A stretch of 64,000 nt of DNA, from positions 1,622,001 to 1,686,000 of the forward strand of contig NZ_VFOF01000001.1 in NCBI RefSeq assembly GCF_006715975.1, read 5' to 3'. The first letter of the stretch is position 1, and every line of letters begins with the position of its first letter. The notes under the pieces were generated by a model. That model did not search any database. It had not been told where the DNA came from and worked only from the letters and a program-made list of their open reading frames with translations. Of this stretch, positions 3,386-64,000 are shown one piece after another. This DNA is from Zymomonas mobilis. GTDB lineage: Bacteria; Pseudomonadota; Alphaproteobacteria; Sphingomonadales; Sphingomonadaceae. The translations under genes were made by a program, and so were the position numbers.

Positions 3386-4159
3386 TCATCCCTGTTGCGG
3401 AGGATGACGCACGGTTAATCCCGCTTTTGCCAGAGCGTCATGCGCTTCAGCCAAGCTATACTGACCGAAATGGAAAATCGACGCTGCAAGTAAAGCACTG
3501 GCATGGCCTTTGGTTACCCCTTCGACCATATGATCGAGATTACCCACGCCGCCGCTTGCGATCACAGGCACGGGAACAGCATCGGCAACCAAACGGGTCA
3601 GAGCCAAGTCATAGCCGTCTCTTGTTCCGTCTTTATCCATTGAGGTCAAAAGGATTTCGCCAGCACCTAAACGGGTTAGATTAAGCGCATGATCCAAGGC
3701 GTTAATACCAGTTGGCCGACGGCCACCATGGGTATAGACTTCCCATGTATCGCCATTACGGCGAGCATCGATGGCTGCAACAACGCATTGCGCCCCAAAG
3801 CGATCAGCGATTTCGGCGACCAATTCCGGTCGTGCAACCGCAGCCGAGTTAACCGCAACCTTATCTGCACCCGCCAATAGCAGCGCACGGGCGTCTTCGA
3901 CCTGACGCACCCCGCCACCAACAGTCAGAGGCATGAAGCAGACTTCCGCTGTACGGGCAACGACATCCAACATGGTGCCGCGCCCTTCATGGCTGGCCGA
4001 AATATCAAGAAAGCATAATTCATCGGCACCAGCAGCATCGTAAACCTTGGCTTGCTCAACGGGATCGCCCGCATCCATCAGATCAGTGAAATTAACCCCT
4101 TTGACGACCCTTCCATCAGCGACATCCAGACAAGGAATAATACGGGTGCAAAGGGTCAT
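3386..4159 (-). CDS. hisF: Imidazole glycerol phosphate synthase, cyclase subunit
   Basis: HisF is the (beta-alpha)8-barrel cyclase that, with ammonia channelled from HisH, turns PRFAR into imidazole glycerol phosphate and AICAR. The 257-residue sequence starts with [19 protein letters not shown], which contains the catalytic Asp near residue 12; the second catalytic Asp is in AAIDARR (about 130), and phosphate-binding GGG and ASGG motifs are present. It overlaps hisA by four bases (ATGA type), indicating translational coupling. Length is normal. Confidence 0.97.
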
Positions 4160-21641: not shown

Positions 21642-22232
21642 TTATCGTACTCTTCTCATCTTGATTGCAGATTGCTGATCAATATTGGCGACGAAAGAAC
21701 CAAAAGAAGCTTTTCTTATCCGGACAACTGATCCAACGTGAGGTTCGTTAGCAACTGGCTGATCATCAATTTGAAGCCAACGCGCGCCATTTGAAAAACC
21801 GATGATCCAATGTCCTTCACCATCATCACTAACGAAGCTAACTTTGTCAGTCATCTCATGGATAACATCATCGGTAGCTTGGTCTTTTTTCTGCGACTGA
21901 GGTGACGGACTCTCTTTTTTAGGTAAAGCTAAAACTGGAGGCGCAAAACCAAAGCTCTGTTTTTGGCGAGCAAGAATAGCCGCCCTATCCACTACGAGAA
22001 TATCGTGATGCGTATTCGCATCGTCTAAAGCTTTAATATTATCGTCAAAACAATGTAGTCTCGCGACATCGTCATTAATTGAACGACAGGTCAGTAACTT
22101 ATTGAATAAAGGGCTATCTTTGAAGCTATTCTGATTTTTGGCAGCTTGAACCGGTATCATAGAAAAAGAAATTACTAGAGATAAAGTTACCCCTGTTATT
22201 TTCGAAAAACGATTCGTCATACGGAAGGTCAC
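21642..22232 (-). CDS. Secreted protein of unknown function
   Basis: The 196-residue product begins with a typical signal peptide: basic residues, a hydrophobic stretch (ITGVTLSLVISFSMI) and an AxA-like site at PVQA. The mature part has LLTCRSINDDVARLHCFD, in which two cysteines are 14 apart and could form a disulfide, then VVDRAAILARQKQSFGF, a Pro/Lys/Ser linker, and a C-terminal domain with SNGARWLQID. Similar periplasmic proteins are found in sphingomonads; I know of no function. A second ATG at 22220 is a possible start. The 3' end is near a stretch of non-coding DNA. Confidence 0.7.
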   Translation of the reverse strand: MTFRMTNRFSKITGVTLSLVISFSMIPVQAAKNQNSFKDSPLFNKLLTCRSINDDVARLHCFDDNIKALDDANTHHDILVVDRAAILARQKQSFGFAPPVLALPKKESPSPQSQKKDQATDDVIHEMTDKVSFVSDDGEGHWIIGFSNGARWLQIDDQPVANEPHVGSVVRIRKASFGSFVANIDQQSAIKMRRVR

Positions 22233-22738
22233 TCCAACAAGCCACTAGGTGATGAGAATAGATAAAAATTTTTAAAAATGAATATTAATTCGCACTTACA
22301 TTTCATTTAACAAAAATTAAACTTCTAATAAAAAACAATATTAACAGATATAAAAGTATTTTAATTTTCTAAAAAAATTATTTAATTTTAATTAAAAGTT
22401 ATTTAATTATTTTTTATCTGTATATTTTTCATAAAAAAGAAAAATAATATCTTATATGTAACAACAAAAAACTAGATATGTGCACTAAACATGCGCAAAG
22501 GCTTTCGTGTTGCAATTTTGTTACATTTTTTAAGGAATGGTTAGCAAACATAAATTTCTTAATTTAGCAATTGCGGAAACATAAAAAATATTATTATCTA
22601 TATCTCAGTAGGAAAAATGCGGCTTTGTTACCAGCGATTTAGATCAGGCCGTTATTTCAAAAAAAGAATGCACAATCGACATCTGACGGGAAGATGTTTG
22701 AAGTTTGGGGACAGTGCATATCTCAAAAAGGGGGAATA
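22233..22738. other. AT-rich gap between divergent secreted-protein and TonB-receptor genes
   Basis: No gene seen. Both promoters must lie here. The sequence is mainly A/T with no GC-rich hairpin. GGGGGAAT at its right end is the receptor's ribosome-binding site. I could not identify a regulator box. Confidence 0.55.
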
Positions 22739-61394: not shown

Positions 61395-62921
61395 ATGTCG
61401 CCTAGCCTTTCGAGCGAACTCTTTTCCGACTCTATCTCTGCCCCGACGACGACAACTGCATATTCAGACAATGGGTTATCCGATGATAGCCTTCACGAAG
61501 AATGTGGTGTTTTCGGCATCTGGGGTGCAGATACAGCCTCTGCCGTTGTAGCCCTTGGACTACATGCTTTGCAGCACCGCGGGCAAGAAGCCGCCGGTAT
61601 CACCAGTTGGGATGGAAAGAATTTTCATTCCCGTCGCGCTGTTGGTCACGTCGCCGGTAACTTTGACCGTGATGATGCTATTCGTAGCTTGCCGGGTTCA
61701 TGTGCCATTGGCCATGTCCGTTATGCTACGACCGGTGCCAGCACCTTGTGCAATGTTCAGCCGCTTTATGCTGAACTGGTTTCGGGTGGTTTTGCCATTG
61801 CCCATAACGGCAATATTTCCAATGCCGAAACATTGCGTCACCAGCTGGTGCGGCATGGGTCAATCTTTCAGTCCACCTCGGACACTGAAACGATTATCCA
61901 TTTGGTCGCAACCTCCAGCTATCGCAGCCTGTTAGACCGATTCATCGATGCCTTAAAGCAGGTCGAAGGCGCTTATTCCCTTACTTGCCTGACACCGGAA
62001 GGTATGATTGCCTGCCGTGATCCTTTGGGTATTCGCCCGCTGGTTCTGGGTAAAGTCGGGGATTCTTTTGTTTGTGCTTCCGAAACGGTCGCTCTCGATA
62101 TTATCGGCGGAACCTATATCCGTCAGGTAGAACCGGGTGAATTGATTATTGTTTCGGAAAAGGGATTGCAGTCGCTGCACCCCTTTAAAAAGCAAAAACC
62201 ACGTCCCTGCATCTTTGAACATGTCTATTTTTCGCGACCAGATTCCTTGATCGGTAGCACCTCGGTTTATTCCGTGCGTAAGTCGATCGGTGTCGAGCTG
62301 GCGCGTGAAAACCCTGTCGATGCAGATATGGTTATTCCTGTTCCGGATTCAGGCACGCCAGCCGCTATCGGTTATGCCCAGCAGGCAGGATTGCCTTTCG
62401 AATTGGGTATTATCCGCTCCCATTATGTCGGACGCACCTTTATTCAGCCGGGCGACCAAGTCCGCCATTTGGGTGTTAAGCTGAAACATAATGCTAACCG
62501 CGCCTTGATCGAAGGAAAGAAGCTGGTTTTGGTTGACGATTCAATCGTCAGAGGCACAACCAGTATCAAAATTCTTCGGATGCTGCGGGATGCAGGTGCT
62601 AAAGAAATCCATCTTCGGATTGCTAGCCCGCCAACCCGTCACAGCTGTTTTTATGGTGTGGATACGCCAGAGCGCGCTAAATTATTGGCCGCTAAAATGA
62701 CAGTCGATCAAATGGCCGAATATATCGGTGCTGATAGTCTGGCCTTTATCTCGATGGATGGTCTCTATCGCGCTGTCGGTGAAGATGGACGCAATGATGC
62801 ACAGCCGCAATATTGCGATGCTTGCTTCACGGGTGCCTATCCGACGCCATTGACTGATCTGGGTGAATTAAGTGCGAGCGAACAGCTGGTACGTCTTTCG
62901 GAGCAAGTGGCTATCGCTTAA
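61395..62921 (+). CDS. purF: Amidophosphoribosyltransferase ([4Fe-4S] type)
   Basis: PurF makes phosphoribosylamine from PRPP and glutamine, the first step of purine synthesis. The 508-residue protein has a propeptide of about 36 residues before the nucleophile in EECGVFGIWG, the N-terminal glutaminase domain (GLHALQHRGQEAAGI), and the PRPP-binding LVDDSIVRGTTS (about 378-389). Cysteines in RPCIFEHVYF, TRHSCFYG and YCDACFTG match the four Fe-S ligands of the B. subtilis type enzyme, so the protein is expected to carry an oxygen-sensitive [4Fe-4S] cluster. A strong terminator follows. Confidence 0.96.
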   Translation: MSPSLSSELFSDSISAPTTTTAYSDNGLSDDSLHEECGVFGIWGADTASAVVALGLHALQHRGQEAAGITSWDGKNFHSRRAVGHVAGNFDRDDAIRSLPGSCAIGHVRYATTGASTLCNVQPLYAELVSGGFAIAHNGNISNAETLRHQLVRHGSIFQSTSDTETIIHLVATSSYRSLLDRFIDALKQVEGAYSLTCLTPEGMIACRDPLGIRPLVLGKVGDSFVCASETVALDIIGGTYIRQVEPGELIIVSEKGLQSLHPFKKQKPRPCIFEHVYFSRPDSLIGSTSVYSVRKSIGVELARENPVDADMVIPVPDSGTPAAIGYAQQAGLPFELGIIRSHYVGRTFIQPGDQVRHLGVKLKHNANRALIEGKKLVLVDDSIVRGTTSIKILRMLRDAGAKEIHLRIASPPTRHSCFYGVDTPERAKLLAAKMTVDQMAEYIGADSLAFISMDGLYRAVGEDGRNDAQPQYCDACFTGAYPTPLTDLGELSASEQLVRLSEQVAIA

Positions 62922-62950
62922 TGTAGCCGCAATGCCGAATATTTGATTGA

Positions 62951-62977
62951 GGGAGCCTGAAAATGGCTCCCTTTTTT
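62951..62977 (+). terminator. Terminator after purF
   Basis: GGGAGCC and GGCTCCC with a seven-base loop, followed by TTTTTT. Confidence 0.92.
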
Positions 62978-62990
62978 ATTGCCGTTTTTT

Positions 62991-63089
62991 ATGAAAATAC
63001 CGATTTTATCAGTGTGCTTTAATATTGTGATCTTAAGCATTTGGGTGGCTGTAAAATTATGGCTATCTCTCTTTGTCAACAGAAGCTAG
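62991..63089 (+). CDS. Possible 32-residue hydrophobic micro-protein
   Basis: An ATG-started frame of 32 codons begins 14 bases after the purF terminator. It encodes MKIPILSV, then a continuous hydrophobic helix with Ile, Val, Leu and Trp, ending LFVNRS. The length and shape resemble small inner-membrane peptides, including type I toxins. No ribosome-binding site is visible (TTTTTT precedes the ATG), so it may be chance. Confidence 0.25.
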   Translation: MKIPILSVCFNIVILSIWVAVKLWLSLFVNRS

Positions 63090-63266
63090 TCATTGGTGTA
63101 TCTTAGCTAAATAAGAAGATAACCATTCTTTATAAAATTCGATGAAAGTCATCTTCATCAATAATTAGATAGATAAATTAATATAAAACTGGATTTTTTA
63201 TTTTATGATAGAGTATAGAAAATAGAATATTCTATCTTAACAAGATGCGGCTATAAGATTTTTGTC
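63090..63266. other. AT-rich region with palindrome before the unknown membrane gene
   Basis: Together with the micro-ORF this makes up the gap of 345 bases after purF. It holds the palindrome at 63222-63235 but no ribosome-binding site or gene of its own. Confidence 0.45.
63222..63235. promoter_or_regulatory. Perfect palindrome ATAGAATATTCTAT
   Basis: A 14-bp palindrome that ends 31 bases before the ATG at 63267, a position usual for operators. GATAGA and TCTATC around it add a wider but imperfect symmetry. No known regulator is matched. Confidence 0.4.
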
Positions 63267-63644
63267 ATGGAATTAAAAATAAATAACAATTATGCTTTGA
63301 CGTCAGGTCAAAACAATTCAACTAAAATTGAAAATGAAGAATTTAATAGATTATTGGGATTAGATGAGACGCATAACAAAAATAATAAAGATAATTTTCA
63401 AAAAAGATTTATCAAATTTTCATTAATTTCTCTTGCAGTCTTATTTTCATTATTTCTATTCTTATTTCACGCTTCATGGATGAAATCTATAATATGGAGC
63501 GCTATTCTTGGTTCTGTATTGGGGTATATAATAACTAAAAGGCTTGAAGAAAAAACGAGCGATTCAGATATTCTACAGTCCATTCATAAAATAATTTCTC
63601 AATATAATTATGGTAATTTTAAAATATTTATACCTACAGAATAG
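63267..63644 (+). CDS. Unknown protein with two predicted membrane helices
   Basis: I do not recognise a family. The 125-residue product has an Asn/Lys/Glu-rich soluble N-terminus (about 1-45), two hydrophobic helices (about 48-68, FIKFSLISLAVLFSLFLFLF, and 75-93, IIWSAILGSVLGYIITK), and a short C-terminal tail of about 30 residues ending NFKIFIPTE. Codon use is clearly more AT-rich than the neighbours (many AAA, AAT, ATA, TTT), which suggests recent acquisition. No strong ribosome-binding site is seen. A palindrome lies upstream and another AT-richer frame follows 41 bases later. Confidence 0.6.
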   Translation: MELKINNNYALTSGQNNSTKIENEEFNRLLGLDETHNKNNKDNFQKRFIKFSLISLAVLFSLFLFLFHASWMKSIIWSAILGSVLGYIITKRLEEKTSDSDILQSIHKIISQYNYGNFKIFIPTE

Positions 63645-63685
63645 GCAGAGACAGCTTCGTCGTTAATTCTGCTGGGTTAATTATT

Positions 63686-64000
63686 ATGAATGAGTGGCAT
63701 AATAAATTGAGTGCAACGGTTTTATTTCCTCAAAATATTCTGTCAGCCCGTATCAATACGGATACGGAATTACAGACAACAACCAAGCAGTCAGGTTCTT
63801 TTACCGTGGGTGCAGGAAAGGGATTATTTGGAGGGTATTCGACGGGAAGAAAAGCGCAATCAAAAACGGTTGCGGTTCATAAACACAGATTTGAACTAAG
63901 ATATCAACTTTCAGCCAATTCTAATGTGCAATTAAAAACAATCGACTTTGGAAGCAACAGAGTGGAAGCTGATAATCTTTGCGATTTGGTTCAGAATTTA
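63686..64000 (+). CDS. Unknown protein, N-terminal part (cut by the window edge)
   Basis: The ATG at 63686 opens a frame of 105 codons that is still open at the last base. It begins MNEWHNKLSATVLF, has Gly/Ser/Thr-rich QSGSFTVGAGKGLFGGYSTG (about residues 35-54) and then VAVHKHRFELRYQLSANSNVQLKTIDFG. I recognise no family, and there is no obvious signal peptide. It follows the unknown membrane gene by 41 bases, so they may be cotranscribed. Function unknown. Confidence 0.55.
   Translation, partial: MNEWHNKLSATVLFPQNILSARINTDTELQTTTKQSGSFTVGAGKGLFGGYSTGRKAQSKTVAVHKHRFELRYQLSANSNVQLKTIDFGSNRVEADNLCDLVQNL

Follow-up and report, generated by a model that had tools for sequence, protein, structure and literature searches.

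A putative frame-shifted orphan membrane-protein gene, probably exchanged between Zymomonas lineages, at the variable purF-SDR site

Genes and features at the locus

The sequence analysed here (the window) is a whole stretch of 64,000 nucleotides of a Zymomonas mobilis genome of 2.10 Mb in 7 contigs (G000:C1:1622001-1686000). At its right edge the 1-kb GC content falls from 0.493 at 62001-63000 to 0.308 at 63001-64000, in agreement with a drop in composition described by the first-pass annotation of this DNA. The left side of this region is bounded by a core gene on the plus strand (61395-62921), which we take from its sequence to be purF-like (amidophosphoribosyltransferase) and which is present in all four Zymomonas genomes compared. 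All further features except the palindrome described below are on the same strand. A terminator-like hairpin is predicted downstream of purF (62949-62973), and is followed by a 42-bp remnant of the right end of an IS4/IS5-type element (63048-63089; 88% identity to the stretch 819-860 in a copy of 860 bp on contig C3 of the same genome), by an AT-rich region (63090-63266) and by two open reading frames, each with its own ATG. ORF1 (63267-63644) encodes 125 aa, and ORF2, with its ATG at 63686, was reported to be open at position 64000; when the sequence is extended rightward in the genome, it stops at 64006, six bases past the end of the window, and encodes 106 aa. To the right of ORF2 lie genes presumed from their sequences to be of SDR type and then RppH-like. 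At L006:16001-20000, the sequence to the right of genes which we take to be cytochrome-bd-like reads N.

For a ranking of GC content, 49 ORFs of at least 100 aa in the window were used (overlapping shadow ORFs removed, ORF1 and ORF2 included; mean 0.482, sd 0.044). ORF1 has the lowest value (0.251) and ORF2 the second lowest (0.39), the third lowest being 0.409. The region had been described as distinctive by its AT-richness, and this holds for coding sequence only. There are two other equally AT-rich places (740-bp windows starting at 2081-2601 and 21821-22121), and since both are centred on intervals that separate ORFs of ordinary appearance, the region stands out as the window's most AT-rich coding sequence, not as its sole AT-rich stretch. 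In these places (2497-2974 and 22233-22693) the GC content over 740 bp goes down to 0.264 and 0.289, respectively.

Three terminator-like sites were found in the stretch, with 0.7 expected from shuffled sequences, and promoter-like sites were at the shuffle level (nine found, 8.7 in shuffles). At E values up to 1, Rfam had a single match; it fell on the purF terminator hairpin, scored 18.6 bits (E 0.62) where the gathering score is 93, and was rejected. A 14-bp palindrome (ATAGAATATTCTAT; 63222-63235) does exist upstream of ORF1, as had been pointed out, and is one of nine such palindromes in the window. When the 345-bp intergenic stretch was simulated 5000 times with a first-order Markov model, at least one 14-bp palindrome occurred in 6.8% of the runs. 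Because there are nine in the window and the copy of this one in Zymomonas sp. W26 contains a mismatch and is not intact, it was rejected as a signal and is unlikely to be functional.

Comparison with Zymomonas sp. W26

In the metagenome-assembled genome (MAG) of Zymomonas sp. W26, the same DNA is a single continuous ORF of 246 aa, and 706 of the 740 aligned bases are identical between the two copies. In the alignment, a short A-run near 63620 differs in length by one base between the copies, and alignment and reading frames together delimit the frameshift to 63618-63626. As a result, the first frame of the window copy ends at 63644, the final residues of ORF1 being out of frame relative to W26, and the second half of the gene (63626-64000 in the window, with its stop at 64006 outside) is left in another frame, in which it is open. 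ORF1 thus corresponds to the N-terminal half, with a short N-terminal region and a two-helix membrane hairpin. Since the two frames are one ORF in W26, the two proteins of the first-pass annotation are most likely the product of one frame-shifted gene.

Rates of substitution between the two copies fit this reading. The dN/dS ratio is 0.22 in the first 117 codons and 0.09 in the last 126 codons, and changes at the three codon positions number 5, 5 and 12 in the first half and 1, 2 and 9 in the second. Shifted-frame controls gave 0.61 and 0.82 for the N-terminal half; for ORF2 there was no synonymous change in the shifted frames, which left the ratio undefined. For the 20 codons that separate the split from the ATG of ORF2, dN/dS is 0.08 (dN 0.022, dS 0.264; only four differences). 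Low ratios in both halves and in the intervening codons are what one continuous selected protein predicts, and ratios of 0.09-0.22 between two lineages mean purifying selection, so that the protein is functional now or was so recently. The only intact copy known is that of W26, which comes from a MAG, and the reading as one gene is to be taken with this caveat.

It is unlikely, but deserves consideration, that the frameshift is an error of sequencing or assembly and that the strain encodes the intact 246-aa protein. The length difference does fall in a short A-run, and PacBio-Sequel chemistry tends to give errors in the length of homopolymers. From its lack of I-F genes and its number of scaffolds (7, as listed for that subspecies in PMC8088579), the window's genome is probably that of Z. 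mobilis subsp. francensis. The new genomes of PMC8088579 are described there as PacBio-Sequel draft assemblies made with HGAP. Against such an error, 71 of the 89 ORFs of at least 100 aa in the corresponding sequence of strain ATCC 10988 (shadow ORFs included) matched the window and none was split; in the reverse direction 69 of 78 matched, again with none split. A match was defined by at least 55% identity, and a second match by 50% or more with E no higher than 1e-10; with these thresholds, short tails in a shifted frame may have escaped notice. In positions 1-62921, coding and noncoding sequence together contain 980 A/T runs with a length of at least four. The lack of splits elsewhere in spite of so many runs makes a real break in the window copy more likely than an error, but does not prove it.

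The stretch might also hold two separately translated genes, for a membrane protein and a soluble partner, with the form in W26 being a fusion or a MAG error. ORF1 and ORF2 do have ATG codons of their own, and ORF2 is the more conserved part; however, W26 reads straight through, and the same constraint is found in the 20 codons before the ATG of ORF2, albeit from four differences only, which leaves this alternative improbable. Programmed frameshifting at the split was set aside, because we saw no classic slippery heptamer in frame there and W26 needs none.

The purF-SDR site in four Zymomonas genomes

Presence and absence across strains, a check proposed by the first-pass annotation, was examined in four Zymomonas genomes. 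By DNA comparison the gene is present in two of them, the window's genome and W26, and ORF2 has no protein match in ATCC 10988 or in the fourth genome (G109). In G109, purF and the SDR gene are 137 bp apart with neither array nor gene between them. The site of ATCC 10988 has a leader-like stretch common to W26 (75% over 227 columns), then an insertion with a transposase-like ORF, which we take to be of IS5 type and which is not similar in DNA to the IS remnant of the window, and then eight CRISPR repeats and a degenerate ninth before the SDR flank; the gene is missing there. Between purF and the gene, W26 has a type I-F array in which the same 28-base repeat occurs five times, with two mismatches in the last copy; the array is followed by a 465-bp 3' part of the IS4/IS5-type element (79% identical to the copy on contig C3 of the window's genome) and then by the gene. 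About 1047 bp of W26 between the purF tail and the IS end are absent from the window's genome, in which the acquired stretch begins just right of the 42-bp IS remnant.

The C3 copy of this element carries transposase pieces (PF13586 above its cut-off; DUF4096 with E 1.9e-7, below its cut-off). The element is dispersed and has CTAG at both tips, and the C3 copy (L031:1858-2717) is broken into several frames. The gap between purF and the SDR gene is a variable slot in Zymomonas, with arrays at L028:6088-6356 and L029 (reverse complement, 3575-4084).

The I-F repeat was found in two of the four genomes of the genus (16 matches in ATCC 10988 and 18 in W26), and is absent, at up to 2 mismatches, from the window's genome and G109. 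The same distribution was obtained for Csy3 (TIGR02566), which is present in ATCC 10988 and W26 and absent from the other two. The absence of the I-F system from the window's genome is judged by these two markers, Csy3 and the repeat. The spacers of the arrays at the site (four in W26, eight in ATCC 10988) gave only self-matches among the sequences compared here. The 28-base repeat equals one which, in the part of PMC5919020 considered here, is common to all eight strains compared there, ATCC 29192 (pomaceae) being one of the eight; if G109 is ATCC 29192, the absence of the repeat from G109 disagrees with that report. The corresponding part of PMC8088579 gives no ZM4-type Cas3 homologue in francensis, but mentions many CRISPR-associated genes in this subspecies. 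Neither main text, of PMC8088579 or of PMC5919020, mentions purF, and no literature on "Zymomonas sp. W26" was found in our search for that name.

The gene adjoins an array in W26 only; the window's genome is without the array, and ATCC 10988 has the array without the gene. The resemblance to the type I-F array locus at this site in ATCC 10988 and W26 is one of place: the slot is the same, and the gene of W26 lies past the last repeat and the IS remnant, but the window's genome has neither the I-F repeat nor Csy3. Nothing links the gene to CRISPR function.

Divergence and transfer

Synonymous divergence (dS) between the window and W26 is 0.18 in the N-terminal half of the gene, 0.11 in the C-terminal half and 0.09 in ORF2 alone. 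For the neighbouring genes it is 1.27 (purF, 300 codons) and 1.22 (SDR gene, 234 codons), which exceeds the dS of the gene by a factor of 7 to 11. In 100-bp steps the identity to W26 is 0.77-0.90 in purF, 0.92-0.99 over 63201-64000 and 0.71-0.89 beyond. Since this peak coincides with the ends of the ORF, the similarity may partly reflect coding constraint and not recent transfer. The noncoding flanks of the gene have 190 of 219 (63047-63266, including the AT-rich region common to W26) and 340 of 412 aligned bases identical to W26, and their divergence is nearer to the synonymous rate of the gene than to that of its neighbours.

Both signs of horizontal acquisition have thus been found, namely patchy presence at a conserved site and a divergence out of line with the neighbours. 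The earlier remark that the region looks acquired is borne out by the presence in two of four genomes, the varying content of the site and the low dS. That annotation had also named what would speak against acquisition, and neither orthologues in the same context in all relatives nor a housekeeping match was found. The simplest account, which these comparisons strongly suggest, is that the stretch moved between the lineages of the window and W26 after their split.

Alternatively, the gene might be ancestral in Zymomonas and have been lost from the two lineages that lack it, without any recent transfer. In favour of this, synteny on both sides of the site is conserved across the four genomes, and a stretch of about 190 bp immediately ahead of the SDR gene can be aligned between ATCC 10988 and the window's genome, at 87%. 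On the other hand, the low dS relative to purF and SDR, a GC content far below that of the other ORFs and the gap of only 137 bp in G109 speak for transfer, and we doubt strongly that the gene was simply retained. We rather infer, with a probability of about 0.62, that the stretch is one acquired orphan gene and not two, frame-shifted here, exchanged between lineages and probably a recent pseudogene.

Searches for families and homologues

No family of Pfam or NCBIfam was found above its curated cut-off for the proteins of the gene, and nothing in PHROGs matched at E up to 0.001; in this respect, the earlier statement that no family could be recognised stands. The nearest family is AgrB (PF04647), with 17.6 bits and E 0.0025 for ORF1 against a cut-off of 23, and the hairpin alone aligns. 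For the N-terminal half of the W26 protein the same family gave 16 bits and E 0.0079 (cut-off 23), and it was not listed for the full W26 protein. The other Pfam near-misses on the hairpin, DUF2418 and DUF2929, are also below their cut-offs and are dissimilar to AgrB and to each other. These candidates were rejected.

Among plasmids, neither window frame had a tblastn match at E up to 1, and the W26 protein, at E up to 10, gave two weak records (E 3 and 9). Among phages, 13 Acinetobacter phage records at E 6 overlap terminase genes and were rejected as chance. Two scans of viral contigs gave 6 and 5 pattern matches, in which no relative was confirmed. In genome contigs, searched with ORF2 only, two of 68 pattern matches were confirmed, W26 and a Myxococcales MAG. 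The latter, with 31% identity in residues 7-95 and an E-value of 3e-5 that refers to the candidate stretches only, is the only match outside Zymomonas below E 1e-3. It lies in frame inside a repetitive, cysteine- and glycine-rich open frame of 1368 aa, and was judged to be chance.

Genomes of the same family, class, phylum and order were also searched, the draws of genomes overlapping and E-values being per genome. With ORF2 only, 5 of 119 genomes of the family matched at E up to 0.1, the window's own genome counted; the other four belong to other genera, with a best value of 0.03. The W26 protein matched 15 of 385 genomes of the class at E up to 0.05 (own genome counted; best other 0.004). 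At E up to 0.005, the own genome and one more (E 0.0049) were found among 398 genomes of the phylum, and the own genome alone among 396 of the order. These weak matches are at the chance level for so many genomes. As far as sequence similarity can tell, there is no convincing homologue outside Zymomonas in the collections searched.

Protein features and structure

The small two-helix membrane protein reported from ORF1 was recovered when hydrophobic segments were computed on the W26 protein, at residues of about 47-66 and 71-90. In that protein, the 13 residues that precede the first helix carry a net charge of +3 and the loop one of +1, KR follows directly after the second helix, and the next 15 residues have a net charge of -1. 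This weakly suggests a membrane hairpin with both ends in the cytosol. Residues 121-246 contain no hydrophobic segment (maximum 0.63).

The structure-based check advised by the first-pass annotation, AlphaFold with Foldseek, was run and gave no confident fold. The single-sequence model of the W26 protein has a mean pLDDT of 44 and no usable fold. The model of the C-terminal part from two sequences (mean pLDDT 41) has eight strands and then a final helix. In PH-like membrane-adjacent domains, a C-terminal helix closes a barrel of some seven strands, and a PH-like layout of the C-terminal part would be our guess from this model. A Foldseek search of PDB and BFVD with the same poor model (pLDDT 41) found nothing at E up to 0.001, and no PH-domain title was among the 50 PDB rows listed. 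Its best matches, a heme-binding NEAT domain in PDB (E 0.078) and one in BFVD (E 0.061), were not used because the model is poor. The best result of a PDB sequence search (E 0.098, ephrin receptors) was rejected.

Proposed history and function

According to the history which we propose, the gene would have been exchanged between Zymomonas lineages after these split, and at the site of the window's genome the array and most of the IS would have been deleted, with the gene left over. The window copy would then be a recent pseudogene, probably inactive or nearly so. The intact protein may sit in the inner membrane via its helical hairpin with both ends cytosolic, and its C-terminal part may act at the membrane on a partner; both steps are weakly indicated.

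It had been remarked that a membrane protein with a partner gene is often a toxin-immunity pair or a similar conflict system, and this reading is not supported for the present locus. The relative in W26 is a single gene of 246 aa, not two separate adjacent genes as in a toxin-antitoxin or toxin-immunity pair, no toxin or immunity family emerged from the searches of Pfam and NCBIfam (at their cut-offs) and PHROGs (E up to 0.001), and the models of anti-phage defence systems in PADLOC-DB did not match either window frame at E up to 10.

Two kinds of known genes are worth comparing. Genus-restricted ORFan accessory genes have a low GC content, a patchy presence, an adjoining IS remnant and no convincing homologue outside the genus, all of which are found here; unlike these, the present gene shows purifying selection when the two lineages are compared (dN/dS 0.09-0.22). 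The second kind, of the defence or exclusion type, consists of small membrane proteins in which two helices are combined with a sensor or effector domain in the cytosol. The protein of the gene resembles them in its overall layout, but differs in that, at the limits given above, the window frames have no PADLOC match and Pfam, NCBIfam and PHROGs have no match either.

As to the type of origin, an accessory gene that stems from a mobile element or from phage conflict, e.g. one for exclusion or defence, is most likely. A tentative and rather doubtful reading of the function, made from sequence comparison, would be an accessory inner-membrane protein with a mobile-element or phage-conflict background, which would act at the membrane via its C-terminal part and would have little or no activity in this strain. 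This reading follows from the low GC content, the patchy presence, the apparent exchange between lineages, the CRISPR/IS slot and the purifying selection, none of which shows defence. That the W26 gene is a membrane accessory of the Zymomonas type I-F system linked to its array, or a stand-alone membrane defence protein of a new family placed in the slot of the array, and that it decayed with the lost I-F system in the lineage of the window, seems to us very improbable.

The reading as a two-gene conflict cassette thus gives way to that of one object, explained for the most part, namely an orphan gene that was probably passed between lineages of Zymomonas. The finding is a fairly ordinary one, an orphan accessory gene which is most likely broken, in a mildly interesting place beside a CRISPR array in W26. 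The slot between purF and the SDR gene has CRISPR arrays and IS elements in certain lineages of the genus and lacks them in the rest. Since Zymomonas has genetic tools, the role of the 246-aa membrane orphan, under purifying selection beside the array, is directly testable.
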